DNA of 64,000 nt from a virus. Below, in pieces: positions 4,523 through 55,905 of the stretch (its first letter is position 1; each line of letters begins with the position of its first letter). The stretch lies in the IMG/VR virus record IMGVR_UViG_3300032579_000531, positions 1 through 64,000 of that record; one strand, given 5' to 3'. The notes below the pieces were generated by a model, which was given only the letters and a program-made list of their open reading frames with translations, ran no database searches and was not told the origin of the DNA. The translations under genes and the position numbers were made by a program.

Positions 4523-6019
4523 TTATATAGCATTATGGGAATTAATGGTCAACTTACGCACAAACCCATATACACTATAGGCTATAAACACACCAATGAT
4601 CACCAGCATTGTAGCACTAATCGGACTGGTCCAAAATGGGCTAAAATCTCCTCTTGATATTGTCATTTCTCTGCGGAAGTTTTCTTCCAACATAGGGCCC
4701 AGAATAAAGCCCAGCATTAAGGGTGCAGCCTCCATACCCAACTTCAGGAACGTATATCCGATTATACCAAAGACTACCGTGGTATATATATCTTCAATAT
4801 TGTTGTTGGTACTGTAGGTGCCGAGACAACAAAAGAATAAAATACACGGGAATAGTACTGCATACGGAATCTTGAATACTGTTAACCAAAGTCTAACCAT
4901 TGGTACATTCAAGATAAGCAAGAATACATTGCCAATCCACATACTTGCAATTAGTCCCCAAAATACGTCTGGGTGCCTGTCAATCATCTGCGGGCCCGGA
5001 GTAATACCTTTGATCATTAACGCACCTAGTATCAGAGCCATAACAGCATTTTCTGGGATACCTATTGACATCAGGGGAATAAAACTTGTACGAGCCGCGG
5101 CTTCATCAGCGGCCGCCTGTCCGGCTACTCCTTCAATGGCTCCGGTTCCTATTTCATCTCTATACTTGCTGAACTTTTTATCTATGGCATAAGCACCGTA
5201 TTGAGCAATAGTAGGACCGCCGCCAGGTAACAGGCCCAAGAAACTACCCACAATACTACCACGCAGGGCCGACGGAATAATACGTTTAAATTCGGCCCAA
5301 GTCGGCATTAATTTAATATTGCCAGTAAAAGGTGTACGCTCATCTCGTTTATCTAAGTTGCTGACAATTTCTGCAAGCCCAAAGCAACCAATGGCAATAC
5401 TAACTATTCCCACACCGTCCATCAAAAAAGGAAATCCCATTGTATAACGTGTAACACCACTATTGACGTCAGTACCAATCATGCCCAGCAGTACTCCGAT
5501 ACACACCATGCCCAGACCATTGACCAAACTACCAGTGGTAATTAAACTGACGCAGACAAATCCTAGCAACATTAACATTACATATTCTGTAGGACCAAAC
5601 AGGAATGCCACATCGCCTAGCATAGGAGCAAACGCCACAACAATAACAGCCGACACAGTTCCACCAATAAAACTACTGACACCTGCTGTAAACAGGGCAA
5701 GACCGGTGCGTCCTTGTAGGTGCATTTGATATCCGTCAATGCAGGCAACAATACTACTGGCATGCGGAATCTTCATGGTAATAGCACTTACACTATCTCC
5801 GTATTGTGCGCCATAGTAAATACCTGCCAACATAATAATAGCACCGGTTGTTGGCATTGCATAAGTCAATGGTAACAATAAACTAATGGTAGCAATCGGG
5901 CCCAGGCCGGGTAATAATCCGATCAAGGTTCCCACAAAGCACCCAATGGCGCAGTACATTAAATTTTGTACAGTAAATGCTGTGTCAAATCCCGATGCAA
6001 GGTGTGCAAGTATATCCAT
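4523..6019 (-). CDS. tctA: TctA, large membrane subunit of a tripartite tricarboxylate transporter
   Basis: A 498-residue, highly hydrophobic protein with about a dozen membrane segments and the TctA signature glycine-rich stretches: GTLIGLLPGLGPIATISLLL near the N-terminus, and the repeat-like SFLGLLPGGGPTIAQYGAYA in the second half, followed by EGVAGQAAADEAAARTSFIP. Length matches bacterial TctA (about 500). The family works with TctB and a periplasmic TctC receptor to import carboxylates such as citrate using an ion gradient. The start overlaps the tctB stop (TAATG). It is the last gene of the long early operon from 12256. Two TctC receptor genes lie 20 kb away (25.6-27.4 kb). A complete TTT transporter in a phage is unusual. 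Confidence 0.95.
   Translation of the reverse strand: MDILAHLASGFDTAFTVQNLMYCAIGCFVGTLIGLLPGLGPIATISLLLPLTYAMPTTGAIIMLAGIYYGAQYGDSVSAITMKIPHASSIVACIDGYQMHLQGRTGLALFTAGVSSFIGGTVSAVIVVAFAPMLGDVAFLFGPTEYVMLMLLGFVCVSLITTGSLVNGLGMVCIGVLLGMIGTDVNSGVTRYTMGFPFLMDGVGIVSIAIGCFGLAEIVSNLDKRDERTPFTGNIKLMPTWAEFKRIIPSALRGSIVGSFLGLLPGGGPTIAQYGAYAIDKKFSKYRDEIGTGAIEGVAGQAAADEAAARTSFIPLMSIGIPENAVMALILGALMIKGITPGPQMIDRHPDVFWGLIASMWIGNVFLLILNVPMVRLWLTVFKIPYAVLFPCILFFCCLGTYSTNNNIEDIYTTVVFGIIGYTFLKLGMEAAPLMLGFILGPMLEENFRREMTISRGDFSPFWTSPISATMLVIIGVFIAYSVYGFVRKLTINSHNAI
4524..4552 (-). promoter_or_regulatory. Early sigma70-type promoter inside the tctA 3' end
   Basis: TTGACC, 17-nt spacer, TATATA. The -35 and spacer encode the last residues of TctA (KLTINSHNAI). 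It drives the membrane-protein/infA/sod/erpA direction. Confidence 0.65.
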
Positions 6020-6435
6020 TATAGTGGTAAATTTAATCCAAGTAAATATTTGAATGCAAGTGTAATCAATACCAGCCCTATAGTAATTTTAATAACTCTT
6101 GCAATAGAGTAAGTTGATGCAGCAGTCGATGCAACTGAAGCAAGTATTACAATACCTAAGATCATGCCGCAGTATTCAGTAGCTACAGCAAACCCAAGTA
6201 GTGCCAGGGAAATAATAATAATGTTTCTAAATTTAAAATCAACCGGTACTGCATCTATCAAGCGACTTTTAATAATGATAATCAGTCCTAGTACAAGTAA
6301 GAATACACTGACTGCAATAGGAAACAGTCCTGCGCCCGGATCGGCAAAGTTGCCAACAGTATATCTAAATCCATTGAGGCCAAACACAATAGAAAACACA
6401 ATGAACAGTATACCAGTTAATAAGTTTTTATTCAT
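6019..6435 (-). CDS. tctB: TctB, small membrane subunit of tripartite tricarboxylate transporter
   Basis: A 138-residue protein with four predicted membrane helices (LLTGILFIVFSIVFGLNGF; LFPIAVSVFLLVLGLIIII; IIIISLALLGFAVATEY; ITIGLVLITLAFKYLLG) and the GNFADPGAGLFP motif typical of TctB. The start is placed at the second ATG (6435), which overlaps the upstream stop as ATGA; a start 4 codons earlier is possible. It ends TAATG into tctA, so both subunits are coupled. Confidence 0.92.
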   Translation of the reverse strand: MNKNLLTGILFIVFSIVFGLNGFRYTVGNFADPGAGLFPIAVSVFLLVLGLIIIIKSRLIDAVPVDFKFRNIIIISLALLGFAVATEYCGMILGIVILASVASTAASTYSIARVIKITIGLVLITLAFKYLLGLNLPL

Positions 6436-6677
6436 TGTTCTATCCACCCTTTAATTATTTCCATTGCTTTGACATTGTTGGTTTCATAGTATAATCTAAC
6501 ACTTTGTTGTTTACCTAAATCTCCATCATTGTTCCAGATCTTATCTACTTCGTTAAAGTAGTTTAGGAAGCCTTGTCCTAGTCTATAGTCTGGACTTTTA
6601 AGTAATTGCCAAGCATAGTGCTCCTCAAATTCCGCCCACCGTTCTTTGGAGATTCGGTATTGATTTGGATTTGTCAT
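6432..6677 (-). CDS. Small early protein, most divergent member of the cluster
   Basis: 81 residues, last of the 24 tiny genes before tctB. It has acidic and aromatic composition like its neighbours but ends IIKGWIEQ instead of the clear DAxxFxLKW tail. 4-nt overlaps on both sides. Function unknown. Confidence 0.7.
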   Translation of the reverse strand: MTNPNQYRISKERWAEFEEHYAWQLLKSPDYRLGQGFLNYFNEVDKIWNNDGDLGKQQSVRLYYETNNVKAMEIIKGWIEQ

Positions 6678-6895
6678 GAATACTTTAAGCAGAATAAACT
6701 TACTGCTGGATTTTCGGGATCATAAAATCGCATTTCGATTGCTTCGTGCTTGGATGTATAATTGCAGTCGTAGTCACGTCGTTCTATTAGTCCGTGTTCT
6801 TTAAGTTCTTCTTTAATACGTAGGGTTTTAACGGCCCACATTTCTGTGCCACGTTCGTGTCTATCGTGTGGTATTCTAATTATCTTCATATCCAT
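6674..6895 (-). CDS. Small early protein, LKW-tail family
   Basis: 73 residues ending PENPAVSLFCLKYS, a variant of the cluster's C-terminal tail D/E-x-x-DA-xx-F-x-L-K/R-W/Y/F. N-terminal part charged, no membrane segment. Overlaps the upstream gene by 10 nt. Confidence 0.78.
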   Translation of the reverse strand: MDMKIIRIPHDRHERGTEMWAVKTLRIKEELKEHGLIERRDYDCNYTSKHEAIEMRFYDPENPAVSLFCLKYS

Positions 6896-7134
6896 TTCAA
6901 CCTAAACATGATCGCATCTGCTTCATCCATGTAGTATAGCGTATTATTGTGATAAAAGCAATTGGGCAAAGTTTCTTCACACCATATTTTTATTTTAGTT
7001 TGCGTGTATACCCAATCTGCTGGACCATAAACTTTCTTATAGTCATAATATTTCAGTTCTATTAGAAACTCGGCATCTAAGGAATCGGCCATTTGTTGAG
7101 CTAAATCATTTGCGATTGCATCTTCTAAGTTCAT
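6886..7134 (-). CDS. Small early protein, LKW-tail family
   Basis: 82 residues ending MDEADAIMFRLKWI, one of the cleanest tails in the cluster. The mid-part LPNCFYHNNTLYYMDE is a likely beta-hairpin before the tail, seen in several relatives. Overlaps neighbours by 10 and 4 nt. Confidence 0.8.
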   Translation of the reverse strand: MNLEDAIANDLAQQMADSLDAEFLIELKYYDYKKVYGPADWVYTQTKIKIWCEETLPNCFYHNNTLYYMDEADAIMFRLKWI

Positions 7135-7349
7135 AGGTACTTTAATGTAAAAGAAGTTGCATCTGCAGGATTGTAAAATTCAAATTCTACACTGGGTAAT
7201 CGTAGTTCGTGGGTTTCCCAACTGTACCCTCCCTGTAAGAATCTATAACTAAAATCTGCGTGTTGACGCAAAGTTTGCCTGGGTTCTTGCACTATTTCTA
7301 TAGCACGGTTAGCATTAGTATTTTCTAGCACAATTATAGTCATAACCAT
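7131..7349 (-). CDS. Small early protein, LKW-tail family
   Basis: 72 residues ending FEFYNPADATSFTLKYL. Starts MVMTIIVLENT. Overlaps neighbours by 4 and 10 nt. Confidence 0.8.
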   Translation of the reverse strand: MVMTIIVLENTNANRAIEIVQEPRQTLRQHADFSYRFLQGGYSWETHELRLPSVEFEFYNPADATSFTLKYL

Positions 7350-7576
7350 TTCAACTTGAAGTGCGTAGCATCTGCAGGCTGTTCAAATCTAAAACAAAAT
7401 CCTTCAGTGCTGTTAAATCCGTGTAAGTGATATCGCCCGCCTTCGGCTGTTTCGATCCAGTTGAGTATTTCCCTAATAGGATACCTAGGACCATCAAATA
7501 CATCTCGCCATAGTATTATAACTTCTTCCCAACTAGTGTGCGGGCCATTAATATGCTCAAACGGTATTTGTATCAT
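7340..7576 (-). CDS. Small early protein, LKW-tail family
   Basis: 78 residues ending FRFEQPADATHFKLKWL. An aromatic-rich middle (TSWEEVIILWRDVFDG) resembles the upstream paralogues' W-rich helix. Overlaps neighbours by 10 and 4 nt. Confidence 0.8.
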   Translation of the reverse strand: MIQIPFEHINGPHTSWEEVIILWRDVFDGPRYPIREILNWIETAEGGRYHLHGFNSTEGFCFRFEQPADATHFKLKWL

Positions 7577-7818
7577 TTAAACTTCAAGGTAAAGGCTGTT
7601 GCATCCGGTTCGTCAATAAACCAAAATGCCGCTATATAATCGTGTTGGTAGCTTGCATCTGAAGTATCTAACAATTCTGACCACATTAAACTTAAATCAT
7701 TTTCCCTACACCATTTCTTCATTTTCCACATTACGGTTTTAGGGTCAGCAATTACGACTTGATGGCATCGATCAAGTACAGCTTGCGGAGGAGTTAGGTC
7801 AACATTGTTTACATACAT
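7573..7818 (-). CDS. Small early protein, LKW-tail family
   Basis: 81 residues ending FWFIDEPDATAFTLKFK. Contains a W-rich basic helix (MWKMKKWCREND). One-nt junction with the upstream gene. Confidence 0.8.
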   Translation of the reverse strand: MYVNNVDLTPPQAVLDRCHQVVIADPKTVMWKMKKWCRENDLSLMWSELLDTSDASYQHDYIAAFWFIDEPDATAFTLKFK

Positions 7819-8108
7819 TATGTGTATTTCAACTTATAAAATGTGTACTTGGCTTCGTCTATAATTTCAAATGTTTGCCCAATCATGTTATCAGGACGGT
7901 GTATACGAAATCCGTATGTTTCTTCTAACCATGTAGCGAATCCTTCTAATTCAAACTTCAGCCCTTCTGCTATACGTATATTATCGTATTCAGCCTTGGC
8001 TATCTGTAATGAACGCCAATGGTCATACTTCTCAGCTGAATCTGCTCTAGGGATTAAAGAATCTATCCGAGCTTCAAAATCTGAATATAAGTGATTGTTA
8101 TTTGCCAT
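7818..8108 (-). CDS. Small early protein, LKW-tail family
   Basis: 96 residues ending IDEAKYTFYKLKYT. The central part contains FELEGFATWLEETYGFRIHRP, a helix-strand layout shared with several paralogues. Overlaps the upstream gene by 11 nt. Confidence 0.8.
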   Translation of the reverse strand: MANNNHLYSDFEARIDSLIPRADSAEKYDHWRSLQIAKAEYDNIRIAEGLKFELEGFATWLEETYGFRIHRPDNMIGQTFEIIDEAKYTFYKLKYT

Positions 8109-8304
8109 CTACATTATCCAATACTGATTTAGCATACCAGCCCATGCGGCCTTCTGGGTCCATGCGTTGTATATCTTCCAGGCCTGTTCTCATGAGTTCG
8201 TTTTGTTCTTGTAGGGTGTATATACGATTGCGTAGGTTGCCAGCTTGCATCCATGACATAAGCATAGATACAAACTTACCGGCTATAGCTGACCAATCAA
8301 TCAA
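8098..8304 (-). CDS. Small early protein without the tail, unknown
   Basis: 68 residues with an amphipathic, possibly membrane-associated N-terminus (AIAGKFVSMLMSWMQAG) and a coiled-coil-like RIYTLQEQNELMRTGLEDIQ. It lacks the LKW tail. The only likely membrane-associated member of the block. Confidence 0.65.
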   Translation of the reverse strand: MIDWSAIAGKFVSMLMSWMQAGNLRNRIYTLQEQNELMRTGLEDIQRMDPEGRMGWYAKSVLDNVDGK

Positions 8305-8582
8305 TATTCATTCCTTAATATATCAAATGCATTGCCGTATTCGTATCGGTTGTATTTCATTACCGGAAACTTGCTGTCTGATTGCCACCGGCGATAGACA
8401 GTCTTACACCATTGCCAATTGCCGTGTATATCCCGAACAGGCCGCCAGGCAAACCACCGCTCCCATTTTGGCATTGCAGTTTTAACATCGTGTTCGGGAA
8501 CTATTCTCCAGTTGACGCCATCGTACATTTCCCAGTTATTAGTAGATGGGTTATAGCGTAATTTTCCAGCTTCTACAGTCAT
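8301..8582 (-). CDS. Small early protein, W-rich, pair with the upstream gene
   Basis: 93 residues, ten or more tryptophans (WERWFAWRPVRDIHGNWQW), ending YGNAFDILRNEY. It resembles the next upstream product (8579), which has the same WYWREWIWY-type core and ends YGDNFDRLKDDR, so the two form a sub-pair with an altered tail. Confidence 0.72.
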   Translation of the reverse strand: MTVEAGKLRYNPSTNNWEMYDGVNWRIVPEHDVKTAMPKWERWFAWRPVRDIHGNWQWCKTVYRRWQSDSKFPVMKYNRYEYGNAFDILRNEY

Positions 8583-8848
8583 CTATCGTCCTTCAACCTA
8601 TCAAAGTTGTCACCGTAGTATCTATGTACTCCACCTGGGCCAAAGCGTTCTGTGTACCAAATCCACTCACGCCAATACCAACGACCATTTATACATCTGG
8701 GTAGTATAGAACAGAAATGTTTGTGCCATATGGCTTTATCTCCACTAATTCTACTCATCTCTTTCCTAACTTGAATATCATCTAGTTGCCAAAGTACGTG
8801 TTGTTGTTTGTATTCCTCTGCATCAAATTTATAATCTTCTATGTCCAT
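8579..8848 (-). CDS. Small early protein, W-rich, pair with the downstream gene
   Basis: 89 residues with RCINGRWYWREWIWYTERFG and the end YYGDNFDRLKDDR, paralogous to 8301-8582. Overlaps neighbours by 4 and 1 nt. Function unknown. Confidence 0.72.
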   Translation of the reverse strand: MDIEDYKFDAEEYKQQHVLWQLDDIQVRKEMSRISGDKAIWHKHFCSILPRCINGRWYWREWIWYTERFGPGGVHRYYGDNFDRLKDDR

Positions 8849-9072
8849 TACTTAAACCTTAGTCTAAACATTATAGCATCTTGCTCGTTAGCAAACCAAT
8901 AACAATCTTCATGCGGGCCTTCCACAACCACTGCCATGGCAATATCCGGGAAATCTCTCCACCAAGCGGCATTCCATTGCCCGATATGCTCTAAACACCA
9001 AGGCTCGCAGTCTGAGTAATGACTGTAGGTTTTTACAGGCACGGTCAGTACAGGATTACGATCTATAGCCAC
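8848..9072 (-). CDS. Small early protein, LKW-tail family (GTG start preferred)
   Basis: About 74 residues ending WFANEQDAIMFRLRFK. There is no ATG near the gene head. A GTG at 9072 gives a 10-nt overlap with the upstream gene, matching the overlaps elsewhere in the cluster; a TTG at 9087 is the alternative. Confidence 0.72.
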   Translation of the reverse strand: MAIDRNPVLTVPVKTYSHYSDCEPWCLEHIGQWNAAWWRDFPDIAMAVVVEGPHEDCYWFANEQDAIMFRLRFK

Positions 9073-9287
9073 CTCAGCATAAACCAAGTGTAGTCTTCGT
9101 CGCGATCAAATATATAATAAATTTCGCTACAATCGCTGTTGGAATCTGGCCTGCATCGAAACGCTTCGCGCCACCGCTGAGCATACTGGTTTGGCCGTTC
9201 TAAATGCTCAATCGGCAAGGTACGCTTGGCATTCCAAAACGCACGATTAAATGTATCGTCTAGCACATTAACTCGAATCATCCCCAC
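9063..9287 (-). CDS. Small early protein, LKW-tail family
   Basis: 74 residues ending FDRDEDYTWFMLRWL. Contains RWREAFRCRPD. Overlaps the upstream gene by 10 nt. Confidence 0.8.
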   Translation of the reverse strand: MGMIRVNVLDDTFNRAFWNAKRTLPIEHLERPNQYAQRWREAFRCRPDSNSDCSEIYYIFDRDEDYTWFMLRWL

Positions 9288-9583
9288 CTTAGTAAAAACA
9301 TAGTACGATCTTGTTCCGTATTAAAATGTACAACCATACCCCGTTGTGTTATAGCACCATTACTTGCCTCAATCCATTGATCAATCTCTTTTTGATTTAT
9401 ATGCCACCAAGCATAATCTTCAATGATTAACAATAAGTCTCGGTCAATTGGAGACGTAGCAGGAATAAACTTGCCGCCTGTTTGTATTTGTATAACACCG
9501 TTAAGGAAGGTTAGTTCCTGTCCATTGTGTTCTACAGTAACTTGCTCGAGCGTTGGCGTCAGTTGTTTATAGATCTTTTTCAT
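9278..9583 (-). CDS. Small early protein, LKW-tail family
   Basis: 101 residues ending FNTEQDRTMFLLRWG. A longer N-terminal half with beta-like VEHNGQELTFLNGVIQIQTG precedes the common helix and tail. Overlaps the upstream gene by 17 nt. Confidence 0.8.
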   Translation of the reverse strand: MKKIYKQLTPTLEQVTVEHNGQELTFLNGVIQIQTGGKFIPATSPIDRDLLLIIEDYAWWHINQKEIDQWIEASNGAITQRGMVVHFNTEQDRTMFLLRWG

Positions 9584-9920
9584 ATATTAGTGTAATACGA
9601 TTAAGTGCTTGTCTAGGAGTAGTATGTCTTGTTTGTACATAGATCTGCCCGTCGGGGAAATCGTACGTTAGCATCCAATTAAAATAACGCTTATCGTATA
9701 TATGTCCTTCTTTGTACATTAAAGTTTCTACTAAGTTGGGTAATGTACGTTCTTCTGGATATATACCATCGGGACGTTTAATACGCTCAATTAAGATTTC
9801 CTCTTGTAATTCTCTGTAGGTTAGGGGCTCTACTACAATCTCTGTCCACAAGGGATTCTTACGTTCTCGATTTAGGACCGCAATCATGTCCTTGTCCCGC
9901 ATAATAAGTTTTACTTTCAT
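9567..9920 (-). CDS. Small early protein, altered tail
   Basis: 117 residues from the ATG at 9920, which overlaps the upstream stop as ATGA. Ends PRQALNRITLIYEKDL, where an A-x-x-RITLIY stretch sits at the tail position, so it may be a diverged member. Confidence 0.72.
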   Translation of the reverse strand: MKVKLIMRDKDMIAVLNRERKNPLWTEIVVEPLTYRELQEEILIERIKRPDGIYPEERTLPNLVETLMYKEGHIYDKRYFNWMLTYDFPDGQIYVQTRHTTPRQALNRITLIYEKDL

Positions 9921-10195
9921 AGCGTCTCTATATCCTTGCAAATAAGTTTAAGCCATACGAGTTCTCGTTCATCAACTTTGCCCCAACTAAGATCAGTGTG
10001 CGGACCTTTAACTAGGCAAACACCATTGGCATTTTCCATCCATACTCTAGTACTGTGCTTTACGGCTTCATCGTGCCAGACTGGATTGAACATACCAGTC
10101 TTACCTGGATGCACGTCAAACTGTGCCAAGTAACGGCAGGTAGTACGTCCAAACATTTTAACATCTTGTTTGAGTTCGTAATAGTAATTGATCAT
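9917..10195 (-). CDS. Small early protein, unknown
   Basis: 92 residues, ends KVDERELVWLKLICKDIETL, a tail variant (ELVWLKL) extended by about nine residues. Starts MINYYYELKQDVKMFG. Confidence 0.72.
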   Translation of the reverse strand: MINYYYELKQDVKMFGRTTCRYLAQFDVHPGKTGMFNPVWHDEAVKHSTRVWMENANGVCLVKGPHTDLSWGKVDERELVWLKLICKDIETL

Positions 10196-10196
10196 A

Positions 10197-10394
10197 TTAC
10201 CAATCTGTTTTTAAGCGGCGACTTTGCCCATGATTACAGTCAGCACAATACCGATGCTGGTATGCATATAAGTTACTGGCTTTCTTTTCAATCGCAGACC
10301 ATTTAAGCCAACGGTGTAAGCCAACACGACATTGCCAACGTTCTACAATAGGCTCTTGATCTTTTAATGTTCTAAATGTATTTTCTTTATTCAT
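10197..10394 (-). CDS. Small early protein with putative zinc-binding pair
   Basis: 65 residues, basic, with CRVGLHRWLKW followed by RYCADCNHGQSRR. The CxxC plus upstream C/H could bind zinc. No LKW tail. Function unknown. Confidence 0.7.
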   Translation of the reverse strand: MNKENTFRTLKDQEPIVERWQCRVGLHRWLKWSAIEKKASNLYAYQHRYCADCNHGQSRRLKTDW

Positions 10395-10396
10395 TG

Positions 10397-10714
10397 TTAA
10401 AACCCATGCCCGTCAACATATCCAATCATTTGTTGGCTTCCATCTTCCCAACGCTCAACTCTCATTAGTATTAATTGTCCTGTACCGCCATATTTTAATT
10501 TTAACATAGCTTCTTGGTCATCGTCAATGGTATCTACAAAAACCTGCCCGGGACCGCTAAAGACCTGTATAGGACGACCTTCTTCAAATAAGTTTTGAAA
10601 CTCGTACTTAGTTTCAAGTGCATGACAGCACCCACGCAACCACTCAACGTCTGCTTCGTCAATATGATCTTTTTCAATGCGCCAACGCTTTAGAGTCATT
10701 TCCATCATAGCCAA
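10397..10714 (-). CDS. Small early protein, internal LKW-like motif
   Basis: 105 residues. The family tail appears internally (DDDQEAMLKLKYGGTG) followed by about 25 extra residues (LILMRVERWEDGSQQMIGYV). Overlaps the upstream gene by 10 nt. Confidence 0.75.
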   Translation of the reverse strand: MAMMEMTLKRWRIEKDHIDEADVEWLRGCCHALETKYEFQNLFEEGRPIQVFSGPGQVFVDTIDDDQEAMLKLKYGGTGQLILMRVERWEDGSQQMIGYVDGHGF

Positions 10715-10896
10715 TATAATGCAAACAAGCTCGCATCCTCTTCTCGTTCAAACTGCATAAACTGTGTGCCAAAGGCAAATCGCTGATACCAACGATCAGG
10801 ATCCATTTCGCCGAACTGATCCCAACACCATTGGGCAATATCACGGTGCTTGTGATAATATTCAGTGCGATCTAATGTAAATTCAATCATAGCCAT
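10705..10896 (-). CDS. Small early protein, LKW-tail family
   Basis: 63 residues, among the shortest members, ending FEREEDASLFALYWL. Shares the start style MAMIEFTLDR with the neighbouring MAMMEMTLKR, suggesting recent duplication. Confidence 0.8.
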   Translation of the reverse strand: MAMIEFTLDRTEYYHKHRDIAQWCWDQFGEMDPDRWYQRFAFGTQFMQFEREEDASLFALYWL

Positions 10897-11120
10897 TTTA
10901 ATCTAAACATTGTTTCTGCGGCATCGCTATAAAAGTCCAAGTGTATTTCACGTATTACATTATAGTAAATACCAAACTTGTCCTCTTTGTAGGTATGCTC
11001 TCTAGCAGTAAAGCCCAACTCACGCCGCATTTTATCTCTTAATAAGACCATGCTACGACCGTGTTCGGCTATAATACTGTCCTGTACAATCCGCCATTCT
11101 TGTAATGAAAGTATAATCAC
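10887..11120 (-). CDS. Small early protein, LKW-tail family
   Basis: 77 residues ending FYSDAAETMFRLKWL. Mostly helical N-terminal half (DKMRRELGFTAREHTYKED). Overlaps neighbours by 10 and 4 nt. Confidence 0.8.
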   Translation of the reverse strand: MIILSLQEWRIVQDSIIAEHGRSMVLLRDKMRRELGFTAREHTYKEDKFGIYYNVIREIHLDFYSDAAETMFRLKWL

Positions 11121-11371
11121 GATTTAATACCCAAGTACTTTAAGTTATAGAATGTTAATGCCTCGCCTGTAAGGGGTGCGTAGATACGAATCTTAAATCC
11201 CCATGTAACAGGATCCGAATCGACGAAAAATACCAAATCGTCGCACTTTGATTTTAACCATTTGGCTTCTTCGCTCTGTTCCCATTGGTATATAGGTTCT
11301 GCTGCATACAGGTAAGGGTCTTCACAATCGCCCATTCTTATTTCTTTTACTAAGGTCCCCCTAGAGTCCAT
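11117..11371 (-). CDS. Small early protein, LKW-tail family
   Basis: 84 residues ending PLTGEALTFYNLKYLGIKS, the tail extended by a few residues. Overlaps neighbours by 4 and 11 nt. Confidence 0.78.
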   Translation of the reverse strand: MDSRGTLVKEIRMGDCEDPYLYAAEPIYQWEQSEEAKWLKSKCDDLVFFVDSDPVTWGFKIRIYAPLTGEALTFYNLKYLGIKS

Positions 11372-11618
11372 TAATTAATCCCCCAACAAATTCTGCTGTA
11401 TATTCTTCCCGGTACCGACGATGGCCACCAGTCTTTAACTGAAACATAAGCGCATCATGTTCATCTGTGAATGTAAAGTCCATCCAATCGTGTGTGGGAT
11501 GAAAGGATACTCGATCTCCTGGTAATCCGTAAGTTTCTACAGTCCAAGCAAGTAGTTCATTCCATGCGTGTTTATGATTTGCTGGATCTGCCCAAGGTAC
11601 TCTAATCGTTACGCTCAT
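11361..11618 (-). CDS. Small early protein, LKW-like motif with extension
   Basis: 85 residues. DFTFTDEHDALMFQLKTGGH carries the family motif, followed by about 20 residues (RRYREEYTAEFVGGLINGL). Overlaps neighbours by 11 and 17 nt. Confidence 0.78.
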   Translation of the reverse strand: MSVTIRVPWADPANHKHAWNELLAWTVETYGLPGDRVSFHPTHDWMDFTFTDEHDALMFQLKTGGHRRYREEYTAEFVGGLINGL

Positions 11619-11814
11619 TCTTTGCTTTCAACATGCGCCAAGCTCTTGGCTCTAAATGTTTGCACTCCCAAAATAACTTCTTCTTAACGCGACTATATCT
11701 AACGTAAACATGCCAGCGATCTAAACTCAATACAAATCCTACACTACGATCACCTGGGCGCCAAATGCTCAGTCCAGGTTTAACAGGAGCACCTTCGTCT
11801 CTCCACTGTATCAT
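11602..11814 (-). CDS. Small basic early protein, unknown
   Basis: 70 residues, strongly basic (YSRVKKKLFWECKHLEPRAW), without the common tail. Starts MIQWRDEGAPVKPGLSIWRP. Possibly nucleic-acid binding from charge alone. Confidence 0.72.
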   Translation of the reverse strand: MIQWRDEGAPVKPGLSIWRPGDRSVGFVLSLDRWHVYVRYSRVKKKLFWECKHLEPRAWRMLKAKNERND

Positions 11815-12068
11815 GAGAATTTTAATAATGCTGTTGTGTACATTTGCTCTGCATCCTTACGATTGCTGTACTTCCAATGTGATCCCCAACGACCACCTTT
11901 GTTGCGTAAGGGATCAAAGAAATTACGAATTTCGTGTTCAACTTCGTGTTCCAGTGTCCACGCCTCGCAACGAACTTCATACCACTTCTTATCTTTTTTC
12001 TTGCATTGTACAAGGGCAAAGCATCCAACTTGGCTTAGTGTTTTATTCTGATTACTCAATTGGCCCAC
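11811..12068 (-). CDS. Small early protein, tail variant
   Basis: 85 residues, ends RKDAEQMYTTALLKFS, a diverged tail. Two other frames are open here. This one is chosen because its junctions (4-nt overlap downstream, 13-nt upstream) and tail fit the cluster. Confidence 0.72.
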   Translation of the reverse strand: MGQLSNQNKTLSQVGCFALVQCKKKDKKWYEVRCEAWTLEHEVEHEIRNFFDPLRNKGGRWGSHWKYSNRKDAEQMYTTALLKFS

Positions 12069-12256
12069 CTTAATCTAAATAAGGTTTCACTTTCTGCGTC
12101 GGGTAAATAGAACCTCCAGTGATAACTGGGAAAGTCGGTCATGAAGTTCCATTTATCCGATTCAAAATGTTGTCCACACCATCGTATAATTCGCTCGATC
12201 TGTGTTGGGGTTAGTTTAGTTGTATTAAGTACTACGCAATTTGATTTAGGGTCCAT
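12056..12256 (-). CDS. Small early protein, LKW-tail family, first gene of operon
   Basis: 66 residues ending LPDAESETLFRLRWAN. The -10 TATAAT ends 5 nt before its ATG, so the message should start at the AUG itself (leaderless). It opens an apparent operon of 24 tiny genes plus tctB and tctA. Confidence 0.8.
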   Translation of the reverse strand: MDPKSNCVVLNTTKLTPTQIERIIRWCGQHFESDKWNFMTDFPSYHWRFYLPDAESETLFRLRWAN

Positions 12257-12261
12257 ATACT

Positions 12262-12290
12262 ATTATAACATATTGGCAATTAATTGTCAG
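12262..12290 (-). promoter_or_regulatory. Early sigma70-type promoter of the LKW-tail/tctBA operon
   Basis: CTGACA, 17-nt spacer, TATAAT, then AGTAT and ATG. It overlaps the end of the upstream gene. Confidence 0.75.
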
Positions 12291-18069: not shown

Positions 18070-18239
18070 TTTGTTTCCTTGCGTTTTAATGTCCACGTAC
18101 CATCTTTGTTATCAATCCACTCAATGATAGCACCTTCTTCCCAGCCCAGCTCTTTACAGGCCTCTCCGATGTCAAGAAGCATTTCTCCTGGATGGTCTGG
18201 ATCTTCTACTATAGTAGTAATCCAACTATATCTTGTCAT
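18066..18239 (-). CDS. Small AbrB-like phage protein
   Basis: 57 residues: MTRYSWITTIVEDPDHPGEM ... LDIGEACKELGWEEGAIIEW, a swapped-hairpin AbrB-like layout common in T4-like phage small proteins. 4-nt overlaps on both sides. DNA binding is inferred from the fold type only. Confidence 0.75.
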   Translation of the reverse strand: MTRYSWITTIVEDPDHPGEMLLDIGEACKELGWEEGAIIEWIDNKDGTWTLKRKETK

Positions 18240-18499
18240 TCTTCAACTCCAAAATGTTCTTCAAACTGTCTCACAACATCTGGTGCCACAGCGTCAGCAA
18301 CCCAGTTATTAGATACAATTCTTGATGGATGTTCCTTACAAATGGTCATACATTCTCTCACAATCAACTCGGCGAACTTGGCTAAGTTTCCATCATATGT
18401 CATATTTTCAATATACAATCTAGGACTATCATCCCAATGTACTAATTGAATGCCTGCATCTTTAACAAGTTTTTTAAACAATTCACTATCTGGATTCAT
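18236..18499 (-). CDS. Small protein, FAELIVREC family
   Basis: 87 residues. Core NLAKFAELIVRECMTICKEH and C-terminus RQFEEHFGVEE. The family pattern is N-terminal MNERIKxL / AG, central KFAELIVREC, C-terminal IKxHFGVEE; this member has a changed N-terminus (MNPDSELFKKLVKDAG). Confidence 0.8.
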   Translation of the reverse strand: MNPDSELFKKLVKDAGIQLVHWDDSPRLYIENMTYDGNLAKFAELIVRECMTICKEHPSRIVSNNWVADAVAPDVVRQFEEHFGVEE

Positions 18500-18740
18500 T
18501 CTTCAACTCATCTATAGGTGGATAATCAATATAATCACCAAACTCCGAACTATACAATACTGCATCAGTTCCTAATATCTGAACTTCTAAATCGTGGTGT
18601 GTAATATCATAATCAACAAAGGTAAAGTCCTCATTATACACACGGAAGAAATAGAAGGTGCCGCCATTCATGTCAACGCCGTGCATGATAAATCCTTTTA
18701 CACCATTGGCAGGTTTAACACTTCTTATCTTCTCGTTCAT
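18486..18740 (-). CDS. Small protein sharing only the family N-terminus
   Basis: 84 residues. Begins MNEKIRSVKPANG like its neighbours but the rest (MHGVDMNGGTFYFFRVYNED) is a beta-rich unrelated domain. It sits inside the FAELIVREC block with 4- and 14-nt overlaps. Possibly the family leader peptide fused to another domain. Confidence 0.7.
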   Translation of the reverse strand: MNEKIRSVKPANGVKGFIMHGVDMNGGTFYFFRVYNEDFTFVDYDITHHDLEVQILGTDAVLYSSEFGDYIDYPPIDELKNESR

Positions 18741-18997
18741 TCTTCAACTCCGAAATGTTGTTTAATTACTAAAACCGATTCATTCATACCAGCGATAGCA
18801 CCTTGCTCGTAAGAGTAAACACCTTCGTCCGCAATTTTCTTTGTGAGGCTATTATTGTTGTATGTTTCAATAGTGGTTACACATTCCCGAACAATCAACT
18901 CGGCGAATCGTAGTCTTAAAAATTCATCTGGATTGCATCCACAATCACATTCTTGTAGATTAACTTGTTGCCAAAGTTGTTCAAACCGATTGTTCAT
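18737..18997 (-). CDS. Small protein, FAELIVREC family
   Basis: 86 residues from the ATG at 18997 (MNNRFEQLWQQVNLQECDCG). Core RLRFAELIVRECVTTIETY, end VIKQHFGVEE. A cysteine-rich patch CDCGCNPD is unique to this copy. Confidence 0.8.
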   Translation of the reverse strand: MNNRFEQLWQQVNLQECDCGCNPDEFLRLRFAELIVRECVTTIETYNNNSLTKKIADEGVYSYEQGAIAGMNESVLVIKQHFGVEE

Positions 18998-19229
18998 TAT
19001 TGCACCCCATATGATCTTTAACATAATCACTTACCCTATTAGCGTGGCTTCTAATTTCTTTATCATTAAGCGATTGTAAGTTATAGTTAAATGTTAGTGC
19101 GAGTTTAGCACATTCTTTAATAATCAACTCGGCGAACTTTTCTAATTCGTTGTATGACATATTGCCGTCACTTAGATTAGCCTCTGTAATGCCAACCTGT
19201 TCACTAAGTTCTCTAATCTTCTCGTTCAT
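18981..19229 (-). CDS. Small protein, FAELIVREC family
   Basis: 82 residues. MNEKIRELSEQVGITEANLS, then EKFAELIIKECAKLALTF, and the end VSDYVKDHMGCNNEQSV, a diverged tail. Overlaps the downstream gene by 17 nt. Confidence 0.78.
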   Translation of the reverse strand: MNEKIRELSEQVGITEANLSDGNMSYNELEKFAELIIKECAKLALTFNYNLQSLNDKEIRSHANRVSDYVKDHMGCNNEQSV

Positions 19230-19460
19230 TTATAGACCTTGTGATTTTCTATAGTCTTCGAATTTATAATATTCAGATAAGCTATTAAATGAAATGCTGT
19301 CCGTTTCGCTATTTTTATATTGTATTACAGCATTAAATTTAGTCTTAGCATATTGATCAAAATCATCACTTGATTTTAGTAGAATTTTATCAAACCTTGC
19401 TGCCTTCTTAAATGCTTTGGCGTTGCGACTATATTTTGTGAAATTTACAGTTACAGTCAT
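19230..19460 (-). CDS. Small basic protein, unknown
   Basis: 76 residues, K/F-rich (TKYSRNAKAFKKAARFDKIL), not part of the surrounding family. Ends KFEDYRKSQGL. Overlaps the upstream gene by 4 nt. Confidence 0.7.
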   Translation of the reverse strand: MTVTVNFTKYSRNAKAFKKAARFDKILLKSSDDFDQYAKTKFNAVIQYKNSETDSISFNSLSEYYKFEDYRKSQGL

Positions 19461-19690
19461 TCTTCAATTCCGAAGTATTCTTTAACACTTTCATTACAAT
19501 GCGTAATAGCATCATTCCATCCAAGATAAAAATCTCTATGCGTACTGTTAACAGCATATGATTTATTTTGTCGTATAAATTCCCGCACAATTAACTCGGC
19601 GAACTTTTCAGCAAATACCGGATCATAATAATGAATCGAATCTCCATTATTTTGAGCCTGTAGAGCAAGTTGTTTAATCCGTTCGTTCAT
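19457..19690 (-). CDS. Small protein, FAELIVREC family
   Basis: 77 residues: MNERIKQLALQAQNNGDSIH, EKFAELIVREFIRQNKSY, CNESVKEYFGIEE. The usual cysteine after RE is phenylalanine here. Confidence 0.8.
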   Translation of the reverse strand: MNERIKQLALQAQNNGDSIHYYDPVFAEKFAELIVREFIRQNKSYAVNSTHRDFYLGWNDAITHCNESVKEYFGIEE

Positions 19691-19920
19691 TATTTTGCCT
19701 TCTGATATTGTCGTTTAATTTGTTCTACAGCATGTTTAACTGAGGCATTATAACCATTTTCCCAATCTTGATACCCACTCTCCGGCTCGGCAATTTTCTG
19801 ACTTTTGATAATCTTGCAGATATCTCTAGCAATCAACTCAGCTAACAAGTTAGCACGACCTGCAAGTTCTGGTGCCGCAAATCCTGCTTCTAGCATTAGT
19901 TCTTTTATTCTATCGTTCAT
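19690..19920 (-). CDS. Small protein, FAELIVREC family
   Basis: 76 residues: MNDRIKELMLEAGFAAPELA, NLLAELIARDICKIIKSQ, HAVEQIKRQYQKAK. The HFGVEE end is replaced by RQYQKAK. N-terminus nearly the same as the copy at 22376. Confidence 0.8.
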   Translation of the reverse strand: MNDRIKELMLEAGFAAPELAGRANLLAELIARDICKIIKSQKIAEPESGYQDWENGYNASVKHAVEQIKRQYQKAK

Positions 19921-20159
19921 TCTTCAACTCCGAAATGTTGTTTAATTTGATCTGCAGAAAAGTATGCGCCTTGGCCGAATTCTGGAGCGATGTCGTTATT
20001 ACAGTCCCCTACTTGAACCGCAACACCTGCACATTCCCGAACAATCAACTCGGCGAACTTTTCTCTTAACGGTTCAGGAAGCATAATAGTGGCATACTGA
20101 TGTTGTTTTGAGAACTCTTCTATAGAATCGTCCCAAAGTTGTTTAATCCGCTCGTTCAT
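19917..20159 (-). CDS. Small protein, FAELIVREC family
   Basis: 80 residues: MNERIKQLWDDSIEEFSKQH, REKFAELIVRECAGVAVQ, DQIKQHFGVEE. Complete family pattern. Overlaps the ligase stop and ATG by 4 nt. Confidence 0.82.
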   Translation of the reverse strand: MNERIKQLWDDSIEEFSKQHQYATIMLPEPLREKFAELIVRECAGVAVQVGDCNNDIAPEFGQGAYFSADQIKQHFGVEE

Positions 20160-21989: not shown

Positions 21990-22379
21990 CCAGTCCTGTT
22001 CTGCTTGCTCGGTGGTATTCTTTAGTTCATTCCACATATACTTCTGTTCGCATTCTTTGTAATAAGAATCGCGAGCTTCCCGTGCATCCGATGAACACCA
22101 CCACTGGACTGCTTCGTAACTACCTTGACATTCACGTGGAGCACACTCGCGAATCCACATAGCCAAGCCCCAATAGGTTTGTTTGTTGGCAGAGTCTGCA
22201 TTGTATAAGGCACGTTCAAAATCGTAGGCAAACATAGCTTCTAAGTGTCCACCTGGTGGCAAGCCGTCGAACAAAAAACGATTTAATGCTTCTGTAGTCT
22301 GCTCAGAGAAGCGCATACCCATATACCTAAGGTTTTCGTATACCTCTGTTTCAAAATCGAGTTTCATACGTTCAGTCAT
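21987..22379 (-). CDS. Conserved phage protein, unknown
   Basis: 130 residues. ALNRFLFDGLPPGGHLEAMF then FERALYNADSANKQTYWGL and ECQGSYEAVQWWCSS follow a pattern common in large phages (RFLxxGxPPGxFLxAVL ... AxxRADxxN). Probably a small phage adaptor; no activity known. Confidence 0.75.
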   Translation of the reverse strand: MTERMKLDFETEVYENLRYMGMRFSEQTTEALNRFLFDGLPPGGHLEAMFAYDFERALYNADSANKQTYWGLAMWIRECAPRECQGSYEAVQWWCSSDAREARDSYYKECEQKYMWNELKNTTEQAEQDW

Positions 22380-22582
22380 TTTTCAACTCCAAAATGTTTT
22401 TTCAAAACCTCAACACACCGACGAACTTCCATATCCTCACGGTTATTATCGCCCATATAACGCTTTTGTACAATATCAACACATTCCTGCACAATCAGGT
22501 CTGCAAGCACCTGCGCCCGATTAGCAATCTCAGGAGCCGCATATCCTGCTTCTAGCATTAGTTCTTTTAATCGTTCGTTCAT
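22376..22582 (-). CDS. Small protein, FAELIVREC family
   Basis: 68 residues: MNERLKELMLEAGYAAPEIA, VLADLIVQECVDIVQKR, CVEVLKKHFGVEK. Shortest complete copy, separated from the main block by the ligase region. Confidence 0.8.
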   Translation of the reverse strand: MNERLKELMLEAGYAAPEIANRAQVLADLIVQECVDIVQKRYMGDNNREDMEVRRCVEVLKKHFGVEK

Positions 22583-25585: not shown

Positions 25586-26185
25586 TTACTTGATATTTTG
25601 GTAAAAGTCAATGGTCTTTTGTTGTTGCTCTCGAAAATCTTCTGCGGTTCCATTCCAGGGGCGGAACTCTAAATCTTCAAGACGTTGACGGTATTTGTCT
25701 TTTTTGAATCCATCAACTAATACTTGTTCTAGCTTCTTTGCTAATTCTGGATCCATTGTAGCTGGCGCAACGATGCCATACCAATTGTCTATATCTATTC
25801 CAGGATACAACGTACTTAAACAATCTATATCAAGGCCGCTGACACTATCTAATACAGCAATAGCGCAAACGTCGGGGTTAGCTTTTGCAGCCACCCAAGT
25901 GTCAAATGCAAAGTCTATTTCACCTGCAACCAATGCTTCAGCCTGTGTGGTACTACCAGTATAGGTGCGGGTAGTGGGTGTGGGTAAGCCGGCAAGTTTA
26001 ATCCATTGATTGATAACTCTTGCAGTTGGTTCGTGCCAGAATCCCAGAGTAAATCCCTCATGGACTTTTTTTAAAAAATCATTATAACTGCGAATATCTA
26101 GTGTGGAACGTGCTACAAGAACAAAACTGGTACGGGCTACAGGTGTTAACGGGACAAAACTGTCCCGTGTATATCCTAAGGACAT
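25586..26185 (-). pseudogene. C-terminal part of a split TctC (Bug-type) receptor
   Basis: 199 residues aligning to residues from about 90 to the end of TctC: SFVPLTPVARTSFVLVA, DTWVAAKANPDVCAIA, DIDNWYGIVAPATMDPELAK. It starts with an ATG that overlaps the stop of the N-terminal part (TAATG), so the halves could be translated in a coupled way and might still pair. The frame stays open with no internal stops. The break coincides with a diverged tandem repeat in the preceding part. Whether this is a functional two-piece receptor or a decaying gene is open. Confidence 0.75.
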
Positions 26186-26448
26186 TACGCTAGATTAGAT
26201 CCAACGCTGGTAGCACAACCTACCATTAATTTGTCTGCTAAGTTTGCACCAACTGAAGTAGCACAACCTACCATCAAACTACTATCTTTACTCGAGGCGT
26301 AACGAGCACCAACAGCGTTATTATCGCCTGGCATGTTTGTTACAGTAACGTCGTAACCTGCTTCTTTAAGAATATCCATAGCAATACGACCAACTGAGTC
26401 AGTTGCGCCACCTTGAGGATAAGGAACTACGATTTCTAATTTTGACAT
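26185..26448 (-). pseudogene. N-terminal part of a split TctC receptor, no signal peptide
   Basis: 87 residues. EIVVPYPQGGATDSVGRIAM matches the start of mature TctC (compare EIVVPYPPGGATDSLGRIVG in the neighbour at 26472), but there is no signal peptide; an ATG with a CGGAG site begins directly at the mature part. It ends in a direct repeat, LMVGCATSVGANLADK then LMVGCATSVGSNLA, where the second copy (41 nt, not a multiple of three) breaks the frame just before the C-terminal part. A GATAAATA motif lies 25 nt upstream, so it may be transcribed late. Confidence 0.75.
26204..26291 (-). repeat. Diverged tandem repeat at the TctC break
   Basis: Two adjacent coding units (LMVGCATSVG[A/S]NLA). 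The first 14 nt of each unit match exactly and the rest differ at mostly synonymous sites. Confidence 0.7.
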
Positions 26449-26471
26449 ATTATTACTCCGGGAATATGCAA

Positions 26472-27413
26472 TTATTTATCTACTTCTGCGGCAATACGCT
26501 TTAGTATCTGCAAATTACGTTTTTGTAACACAAGTAGAGATTCTGAAGTGCCACCATATGTTTTAATATTAAGCATATCCATCTTTTCGCGGTACTTAGA
26601 TTCTTTAAATGCTGCATTAATGATTCGGTTCAACTCGTCTACGGTAGCCTTGGGAGTACCTGTTGGAGCCCATAACCCGTACCATACACCCACATTCAAT
26701 TCTGGGTGTGCAGTTGATATAGCAATAGCCGAGCTGTCGGGTTTAATTTTTTTAATAACTGATAATCCACCCTGGTCCAATGTAGCAAGTACACGGACCT
26801 TGTCGGCAGCAAAGAACGGCTGAATTGCTAACCATGTATCAAATCCCGACATGACCTGCCCGCCAACTAAGTCCTGCATTTGCGGAGTAGATCCTTTGTA
26901 CAAAATGATTGTCGGACGAGGCAACCCCTCTTTCTTAGCCCAATCATAAAATATATTAGCAGTATTGGCATTCCAAAACGCCAAATTAAATTTATCTGGA
27001 TTCGCCTTAACATAAAATTTAAACTGTTCGTAATTTTTAATAGGACTACCGGAGGGCACCGCCAGTACATAACTAATATTTGCTAACGGTACAATAGGAA
27101 CAAAACTTTGTTCTGTGTATTCCATACCTTGTGCTTTAAATGCTATGTTAGCGTCAAGAGCACCTGTTGCACCAACAAACAATGTTTTGCCATCGGGTTT
27201 TCCTTTAGCAACATAATTGGCACCAATGACAGCATCAGCTCCGGGCTTGTTTACAACAATACTTGGCATACCGTGTTCATTAAGAATTTCGCCAACAATG
27301 CGTCCTAGACTGTCTGTGGCCCCTCCCGGTGGATAAGGTACTACAATTTCAATTGGCTGTGCCGCAAATACTGCTGTTGATACAAATAATAATAGTGTTG
27401 CTAAAAATTTCAT
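26472..27413 (-). CDS. tctC: TctC/Bug-family periplasmic solute-binding protein
   Basis: 313 residues from the ATG at 27413, which overlaps the upstream stop as ATGA; an in-frame start 11 codons earlier would spoil the signal peptide. Signal peptide residues 1-17 (MKFLATLLLFVSTAVFA), then QPIEIVVPYPPGGATDSLGR, the TctC/Bug signature, and later NVGVWYGLWAPTGTP and TVDELNRIINAAF. Full family length. It captures a carboxylate in the periplasm and hands it to TctAB; the partner genes lie at 4.5-6.4 kb in another operon. The ligand cannot be predicted. Confidence 0.93.
   Translation of the reverse strand: MKFLATLLLFVSTAVFAAQPIEIVVPYPPGGATDSLGRIVGEILNEHGMPSIVVNKPGADAVIGANYVAKGKPDGKTLFVGATGALDANIAFKAQGMEYTEQSFVPIVPLANISYVLAVPSGSPIKNYEQFKFYVKANPDKFNLAFWNANTANIFYDWAKKEGLPRPTIILYKGSTPQMQDLVGGQVMSGFDTWLAIQPFFAADKVRVLATLDQGGLSVIKKIKPDSSAIAISTAHPELNVGVWYGLWAPTGTPKATVDELNRIINAAFKESKYREKMDMLNIKTYGGTSESLLVLQKRNLQILKRIAAEVDK
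26473..26480 (-). promoter_or_regulatory. Late promoter motif upstream of the split TctC
   Basis: Minus-strand GATAAATA, about 25 nt before the ATG at 26448. It overlaps the stop of the intact tctC gene. Confidence 0.5.
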
Positions 27414-28261
27414 TTCTTCATCCAATCTACGTAATTTTTGTTCCACTCAGCGGGATCATTGAATATGTCCTCACACAAACTGTGATGACGTGCTTTTGAA
27501 TCTCGTGTAAACTCTACAACAAAGCGACCAATTTTCTTTGGATCTTTAAACATACCAAAGTTATCGGGGAACTCTGTTTTAAGTTGTTCGTAAACATCTA
27601 GGTTAGCAGTAAAGCCATTAATTTCCATAATAGTCTTTAGTGCAGCAATACTTGAGTTAGCGGCTGTACACTTGATACTGCCGTTAACTGCGGCCAGCAT
27701 AGTCATGTCGCCAGCTTGCCATTCTGTATAAGGGATTTCGTATTCCAAGTCGTGCCAAAAGTCGTGCGGTAGTATATCTTGGTTGCCGTTCCACATCCAC
27801 TTAGGATGGCGGCTTTCTACAATAATGTGATCACCTCTATGTGCTAAGTGTCTCATAAACCAAGCATGGTCGTGGTGGCCAAATAATACACCCCAACAAA
27901 AGATAATATCATATTTTTCATCATTACCAAGAAAGAACTCTGTTAAACTTTGGTTAATGATTTCCCAGTTATTATCTTTATGATACTTAGTTAATAGTTC
28001 AGTTGCCGTTTCGCAAAACTCTGGACTAATCTCCACACCTGTGTAACTTGCGGCACCATTGCTTAAACACCAATCGCCTGTTTGTCCAATGAAGCTACCG
28101 ATATCTAATATACGTTTATTAAGTAATCGCTCGGGAGGCAATAGCCATTCGTGTTTTTTAATTGTAATGTTAGGGTTCATTGGAACGCCACACTCTGGTG
28201 GACGATTCGCTCTAAAGTCTTTTTCCAAGAACTCAGGATGTTGTTTGAAGGAGTTTATCAT
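27410..28261 (-). CDS. SAM-dependent methyltransferase
   Basis: 283 residues. NKRILDIGSFIGQTGDWCLS is motif I, YTGVEISPEFCETATELL motif II, YDIIFCWGVLFGHHDHAWF motif IV. The layout resembles tRNA-U34/CmoB-like and small-molecule methyltransferases. The ATG lies directly at the 3' end of the tmRNA gene; it reads into tctC with a 4-nt overlap. Substrate unknown. Confidence 0.82.
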   Translation of the reverse strand: MINSFKQHPEFLEKDFRANRPPECGVPMNPNITIKKHEWLLPPERLLNKRILDIGSFIGQTGDWCLSNGAASYTGVEISPEFCETATELLTKYHKDNNWEIINQSLTEFFLGNDEKYDIIFCWGVLFGHHDHAWFMRHLAHRGDHIIVESRHPKWMWNGNQDILPHDFWHDLEYEIPYTEWQAGDMTMLAAVNGSIKCTAANSSIAALKTIMEINGFTANLDVYEQLKTEFPDNFGMFKDPKKIGRFVVEFTRDSKARHHSLCEDIFNDPAEWNKNYVDWMKK

Positions 28262-53701: not shown

Positions 53702-53850
53702 TTAGGCTTGCAGATATTACCTTTAGATCCATTTAAACTATAGACACTGATCCAACGGTCAAGTTCTGTGCCGTATTCAGCAAAACGGTATGGCAGGAAA
53801 TAGATGTGTAATGCCCACCATACGTAACTATCCAACACTTTGTCTATAAT
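53698..53850 (-). CDS. Small protein after the cyclase, unknown
   Basis: 50 residues from the ATG at 53850, overlapping the cyclase stop by one nt. MIIDKVLDSYVWWALHIYFL suggests a membrane-associated start; ends SVYSLNGSKGNICKPN. Converges with the plus-strand membrane gene. Confidence 0.62.
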   Translation of the reverse strand: MIDKVLDSYVWWALHIYFLPYRFAEYGTELDRWISVYSLNGSKGNICKPN

Positions 53851-55901: not shown

Positions 55902-55905
55902 CAAG

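Follow-up and report, generated by a model that had tools for sequence, protein, structure and literature searches.

Why should a run of very small phage genes, whose products differ strongly over most of their length, end again and again in nearly the same residues? The question is raised by the virus record IMGVR_UViG_3300032579_000531 of IMG/VR (78,032 bases, also called G000), of which a 64-kb stretch, the window, was analysed here. A block of small genes at 6432-12256 on the minus strand encodes proteins many of which share the C-terminal tail DAxxFxL[KR]W, which an original prediction took for an anchor or docking tag joined to variable heads. We propose a different answer. The tail is predicted to be the last helix of one common fold and, in members with an arginine in it, its DNA appears also to carry the Shine-Dalgarno (SD) sequence of the following gene; we hold this combination of fold and dual coding with high confidence. 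The whole explanation, in which the block is an array of an ancient, diversified family of ~60-100-residue proteins with a shared fold, SD-bearing tails and a role as host-directed binders, is on balance probable. Its functional element, that the variable parts bind targets, is put forward tentatively.

A contiguous array of genes under purifying selection

The interval is filled entirely by 24 contiguous minus-strand open reading frames (ORFs), as had been predicted, although they span a slightly wider size range (63-124 aa each) than the 60-105 residues first given. At all 24 junctions of the block, neighbours overlap or are separated by no more than 2 nt. Only 11 of the 1375 six-frame ORFs of at least 25 aa in the window end in [FY]xL[KR][WYF], and all 11 lie inside the block; a family hidden Markov model (HMM) built from homologues found 13 members in the whole 78-kb record, again all of them in the block, and 11811-12068 and 11117-11371 are borderline additional members. 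The tail is thus shared as claimed, the count of at least 15 being slightly high.

These ORFs are real genes, since the related contig 3300002933_000006 contains orthologs or clear homologues of 23 of the 24, mostly at 46-90% identity, and mostly with a nonsynonymous rate (dN) well below the synonymous rate (dS), for example 0.08/0.49 and 0.075/0.91. The sole block gene lacking a counterpart in that contig, 9063-9287, is matched by an ortholog at 58% in a 317-kb phage. The block is, in short, a purifying-selected gene array. Among paralogs the heads have a mean column identity of 10-16%, whereas among orthologs they are conserved, and the amplification must therefore be ancient, with each head under its own constraint. 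The original prediction of a gene amplification in which the C-terminal part stayed constant and the N-terminal parts came to differ strongly accordingly stands, with the additions that the amplification is old and that a Trp in the first helix is near-invariant nonetheless. The MGIM- or MVM-type N-termini of many ORF calls were judged to be artefacts, their first ATG being the AATGG within the LKW/LRW codons; a start at the second ATG, which overlaps the stop, is likelier.

The tail as the last helix of a predicted common fold

AlphaFold2 models of two divergent members, 7340-7576 and 12056-12256, had predicted local distance difference test scores (pLDDT) of 87.8 and 86.8, respectively. Both show the order strand-helix-strand-strand-helix, with an additional short helix in the former, and in both the tail forms the last helix (residues 67-77 and 54-64). 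In an alignment of 46-64 members, the F and L of the tail helix are near-invariant, and so is the Trp of helix 1, frequently followed by FG, which is conserved as strongly as the tail. Nor is the tail always terminal: 11361-11618 continues for ~20 residues beyond it, and a homologue in the related record G008 has a long C-terminal extension. On these models, members have in common a beta-alpha-beta-beta-alpha fold, with the shared tail as its last helix, and this would correspond to a ferredoxin/RRM-like fold minus its last strand. A separate anchor or docking tag is not supported, and that reading was dropped once the models placed the tail as an integral helix.

The best Foldseek match among solved structures was an RRM-like domain (E 0.18, template modelling (TM) score 0.57); RRM domains generally gave TM ~0.5-0.6, and RRM and KH domains were among the best matches, none of them significant. 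No RRM match in sequence was obtained by HMMER against PDB chains of RRMs or in Pfam. The family therefore resembles RRM/ferredoxin-like proteins in the order of its elements and in TM score, and differs from them in the missing last strand, in sequence and in the lack of a significant Foldseek E-value. In a viral structure library, the good matches were uncharacterised proteins of uncultured phages.

A proposed ribosome-binding site within the tail codons

The recurring tail codons are TTG AGG TGG GCA TGA, or a form ending in TAATG, with the general form xTG AGG TGG NNA TGA. The GAGGTG that they contain pairs with the anti-Shine-Dalgarno sequence CACCUC; measured from its GAGG, ~5 nt separate it from the start codon of the following gene, which overlaps the stop. 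Of 35 tail Arg codons, 29 are AGG, a codon that makes up 6.6% of Arg codons in the bodies of these genes and 3.4% in long ones. In a larger codon set of 315 members, from which those selected by motif were excluded, the tail Arg was encoded by AGG in 133 of 158 members whose stop is overlapped by a start and in 7 of 22 without such an overlap (p 8e-7). The difference persisted with one member per similarity cluster (~33/40 against 1/7, p 4e-4 to 8e-4) and was replicated on separate contigs (85/121 against 7/21, with 8.3% in gene bodies). The preceding Leu codon ends in G in 73% of cases before Arg and in 38% before Lys (p 8e-8). Pairing with the anti-SD amounts to -8.4 kcal/mol for Arg tails, as compared with -2.6 for Lys tails and -3.9 for long genes, and the upstream gene has an SD at its 3' end when its tail is of the Arg type but not when it is of the Lys type. 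The junctions themselves are overlaps of 1 or 4 nt, with ATGA or TAATG in 49 of 72 tails, and an open frame starts at the stop in 255 of the 315 members. The tail Trp is retained without overlap in 50 of 60 cases, as expected for a residue of the fold.

The tail DNA is sufficiently distinctive to find the family. A blind scan of all IMG/VR with the 17-nt motif YTRAGGTGGGCATAATG returned 67 sites, 55 of which end a family ORF by HMM; most of the remaining sites read xFxLRWA or similar. With a second DNA pattern, 115 of 122 sites, in newly fetched loci, end a family ORF. We believe that part of the uniformity of the tail (Arg over Lys, with AGG as the usual codon, G as the third base of the Leu codon, and NNA as the last codon) arises because the tail embeds an SD and the next start codon; the codon comparisons support selection acting on the tail DNA.

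Termination-reinitiation with an SD motif inside the upstream gene has documented precedent (PMC6728339), and reinitiation needs tight overlap (PMC10666635). The present junctions resemble these known cases at ATGA/TAATG in their 4-nt and 1-nt overlaps and in the position of the SD in the upstream 3' end (PMC6728339; PMC10666635). They differ in that the SD appears to be built into a conserved C-terminal helix motif, so that each Arg-type paralog would carry a portable ribosome-binding site. Translational coupling and small phage host-interaction genes are already known kinds; new here is that the conserved C-terminus of a protein family carries the SD.

A second paralog family in the window, at 18236-20159 and 22376-22582 on the minus strand, has the form MNERIKEL..FAELIVREC..HFGVEE. 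Its tail codons, TTY GGA GTT GAA GAA TGA, place GGAG 7 nt before an overlapping ATGA, and its tail Gly codon is GGA in 13 of 13 cases across the fetched loci against a background of 24%. Since the same arrangement is found in this family, for which tblastn gave no match in cultured phages, an SD in the tail is not tied to one fold.

Occurrence in uncultured jumbo phages

Searches with curated cut-offs in Pfam, NCBIfam and PADLOC gave no match to the family, Pfam recognising only the gp23 part of one fusion protein; comparisons with the PDB by sequence and by fold gave no significant match, and BLAST of the block and of its concatenated proteins against cultured phages found no relatives. Relatives were instead reached via neighbouring genes and single-ortholog alignments; we label fetched loci of related phages with L and related records or contigs with G. 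Matches of neighbouring genes in L005-L011 proved to be other phages lacking the array. No member was found in BcepSauron or Aeromonas phage 65, both suggested by weak Foldseek matches, or in Synechococcus phage B23, phiM12, HTVC008M or T4, and P-SSM2 gave one weak HMM match only, inside a large protein (E 0.026). The Agrobacterium jumbo phage Atu_ph07 encodes distant members by HMM (AUZ95034, AUZ95037 and AUZ95014; E 6e-6 to 1.4e-4), uncharacterised proteins that are few in number and lack the LRW tail. When 84,980 prokaryote genomes were scanned by pattern, three matches were returned, none in the family.

Within IMG/VR, by contrast, the family is present in 8 of 8 related records, and copy numbers range from 6 to 60 among eight large contigs of 210-417 kb, the maximum being in one 417-kb contig. 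The gp23 major capsid gene is present in G003 and in 7 of the 8 large family-carrying contigs; it is not in the 78-kb fragment G000 itself. On this sequence evidence, the family belongs to uncultured T4-type jumbo phages; many stacked arrays encode its small, ancient sister proteins, and the block in the window is one of these. Literature searches on paralogous small-protein arrays in jumbo phages gave nothing relevant. Family domains fused to the gp23 N-arm occur at L017:7578-8018, L134:3312-3638 and L133:1422-1898, and the L017 fusion also contains AFYAPYIPL, which is like a distant part of gp23.

Promoter and turnover of the operon

CTGACA-17-TATAAT lies upstream of the first gene, its -10 box ending 5 nt short of the ATG. 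L017, L023 and L013 retain this arrangement, with a distance of 5-7 nt from the -10 box to the first ATG; in the pair L014/L015 (L014, from G007, nearly duplicates L015) the -35 box has decayed. A leaderless transcript read by the host RNA polymerase is therefore predicted, which bears out the promoter originally proposed; its early timing we infer. The same prediction had the block precede tctBA, and these genes do close the operon in the window, in G002 and in G004, and not at this place in G001 or G006.

A core is common to relatives (the genes at 12056, 11361, 11117, 9917, 7573 and 7340, often also 8579 and 8098), and the remainder differs, with 1 to 22 family members per compared locus. 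In L015, the pair 7573-7340 and the gene at 6432 are at other positions; order is changed also in G003 and is wholly different in the 317-kb phage. Such gain, loss and reordering is consistent with stackable gene cassettes. In relatives, larger genes (231, 166 and 525 aa) are inserted in the small-gene operon (L017:1705-2890 and L013:7537-9114).

Weighing the alternatives

Several points weigh against our account. In the window only 12056, 9278, 9063 and 8848, 4 of 13 members, are of the Arg/AGG type, and the remaining members depend on stop-start overlap alone. Lys-type members show no codon preference and a weak SD, and dual coding is therefore not the reason for their tail. AGG still makes up 32% in non-overlapping members, and because members share ancestry the raw p-values are inflated, which the one-per-cluster test corrects in part. 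The likeness to RRM proteins is at the level of fold only and not significant, and linking any member to a target, an expression time or a phenotype would be conjecture.

Could the AGG bias stem from a single tail DNA that gene conversion or recombination spread recently, rather than from an SD? Paralogs are alike in tail DNA and cassettes do move, but AGG is almost constant where other synonymous sites of the tail vary (Leu TTA/TTG/CTA/CTG, Phe TTT/TTC), and its use depends on an overlapping start; we consider this very unlikely. A tail that acts as a stand-alone tag for docking or targeting, bringing different heads to one partner such as RNA polymerase, the ribosome or the virion, would agree with ortholog conservation of 90% in the tail against 73% in the head and with the almost invariant F, L and W of the tail. 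This reading is nevertheless unlikely, given the integral position of the helix in the predicted domain, the equal conservation of the helix-1 Trp and the further residues beyond the tail in several members. If members were instead subunits of one heteromeric assembly, the stop-start overlaps could serve co-translational assembly: heteromeric complexes are over-represented among the products of overlapping gene pairs (PMC10666635), and every junction of the block is that tight. Fixed complexes, however, would not be expected to vary so widely among relatives in content and copy number (1 to 60) or to lose their order, which makes this reading rather improbable.

Two further proposals concern function. 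Members might be RNA-binding regulators that use an RRM-like fold on phage or host RNAs; the RRM and KH domains among the Foldseek matches speak for it, while their lack of significance (E >=0.18) and the acidic to neutral character of most members leave it quite doubtful. Or the proteins might act on capsid assembly of their own or a competing phage through mimicry of the gp23 N-arm, as the peptide ILPxIRRVMPxxIAxDIxGVxPM is joined to the family domain in three phages (twice in front, once behind) and the head of 6886-7134 is weakly like gp23. With that peptide in only three of several hundred members and no likeness to structural proteins in the others, this reading has little chance.

A model for stacked small genes

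We propose that the genes are stacked stop-on-start, such that translation of each would feed the next by termination-reinitiation, and that an Arg-type gene would supply the ribosome-binding site for whatever gene comes behind it. Such genes would be cassettes, easily added, dropped and reordered. Host RNA polymerase would transcribe the operon early, starting at a strong leaderless promoter, and the paralogs may bind different targets through their variable strands, loops and extensions, in host takeover, counter-defence or competition with other phages. Diversified early binders are our best-supported guess at function, suggested by the small, soluble, mostly acidic-to-neutral products, the strong promoter, the high turnover and the conserved heads. 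It is also possible, though we would not press it, that the array is a jumbo-phage plug-in system of counter-host genes, in which the 3' end is both closing helix and translation-start module and to which the unrelated LRW and FGVEE families converged; new heads could then be inserted, lost and reordered without new regulatory DNA.

The small early host-takeover proteins of T4-type and SPO1-type phages are likewise encoded in clusters of short genes of unknown function, with strong early promoters and rapid gain and loss. Those proteins are mostly mutually unrelated, whereas here one family provides up to 60 paralogs. Integron-type gene cassettes offer an analogy only: in both, modules of one gene each, constant at the 3' end, can be stacked and reordered, but the constant end here is coding and would serve translation rather than integration, and no recombination site or integrase turned up, none having been searched for.

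One profile and one predicted fold now cover hundreds of unannotated small genes in uncultured jumbo phages, and the model gives a simple rule for how shuffled gene stacks could stay expressed. It also cautions that a conserved protein tail may be partly shaped by the ribosome-binding site of the next gene. The model predicts that replacing AGG by a synonymous codon will change how strongly the following gene is expressed. If members do bind host proteins, the arrays would form a large and already sorted collection of proteins that are candidates for inhibiting bacteria or for counter-defence.

Features of the block and neighbouring genes

From the promoter to tctA, all on the minus strand (-), the features are as follows.

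12257-12290 (-): promoter CTGACA-N17-TATAAT, -10 box 5 nt before ATG; leaderless transcript expected; orthologous position in L017, L023, L013
12056-12256 (-): first gene, family member, LRWAN tail (AGG); HMM E 7.3e-16; AlphaFold2 pLDDT 86.8, beta-alpha-beta-beta-alpha; dN/dS 0.077/0.50
11811-12068 (-): basic small protein, probable divergent member (..LLKFS; ortholog end LLLRWS), by ortholog comparison
11602-11814 (-): small basic protein, outside the tail family; conserved
11361-11618 (-): family member, extension after tail helix; HMM E 1.6e-15; core gene in relatives
11117-11371 (-): small protein ending FYNLKYLGIKS, borderline member by ORF-end scan and orthologs; core gene
10887-11120 (-): family member (RLKWL); HMM E 9.9e-11
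10705-10896 (-): family member (ALYWL); HMM E 1.2e-13
10397-10714 (-): small acidic protein, not clearly in the family; ortholog comparison
10197-10394 (-): small Cys/His protein; weak HNH-like match, phrog_826, E 0.001
9917-10195 (-): conserved small protein, operon core gene; orthologs in relatives
9567-9941 (-): conserved 124-aa protein, outside the family; ortholog comparison
9278-9583 (-): family member (LLRWG; CTA AGG TGG GGA TGA, SD plus ATGA of next gene); HMM, tail codons
9063-9287 (-): family member (MLRWL; CTG AGG TGG); HMM, tail codons; 58% ortholog in 317-kb phage
8848-9087 (-): family member (RLRFK; CTA AGG TTT AAG TAATG); HMM, tail codons
8579-8848 (-): W-rich protein, second small paralog family (YGDNFDRLK); orthologs in relatives
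8301-8582 (-): W-rich protein, second small paralog family (YGNAFDILR); orthologs in relatives
8098-8304 (-): conserved small protein (GWYAKSVLDN), core gene; orthologs in relatives
7818-8108 (-): family member (YKLKYT); HMM E 9.3e-13
7573-7818 (-): family member (TLKFK), core gene, relocated in L015; HMM E 2.6e-16
7340-7576 (-): family member (KLKWL), core gene; HMM; AlphaFold2 pLDDT 87.8
7131-7349 (-): family member (TLKYL); HMM E 1.6e-14
6886-7134 (-): family member (RLKWI), head weakly like a gp23 helix; HMM E 3.7e-15
6674-6895 (-): family member (CLKYS); HMM E 1.1e-8
6432-6677 (-): last small gene, outside the family; phrog_6714 match (function unknown), E 4.1e-7
6019-6447 (-): TctB, overlaps last small gene; cassette in some relatives only
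4523-6019 (-): TctA; cassette in some relatives only

The W-rich pair at 8301-8848 (-) represents another small paralog family, ending YGxxFDxL[KR], with more copies in relatives. A small protein of the array in the 317-kb phage (L042:4551-4865) matches phrog_5356 (E 5.9e-7), of unknown function. Together with two or three TctC-like receptor genes, TctA and TctB make up a phage-borne tricarboxylate transporter set (4523-6447 and 25586-27446, minus strand), in which the TctC-like gene 25586-26448 is perhaps broken and has the internal repeat LMVGCATSVG. Elsewhere in the window, 53850-55904 (-) encodes a protein with CHASE2 and adenylate/guanylate cyclase domains.

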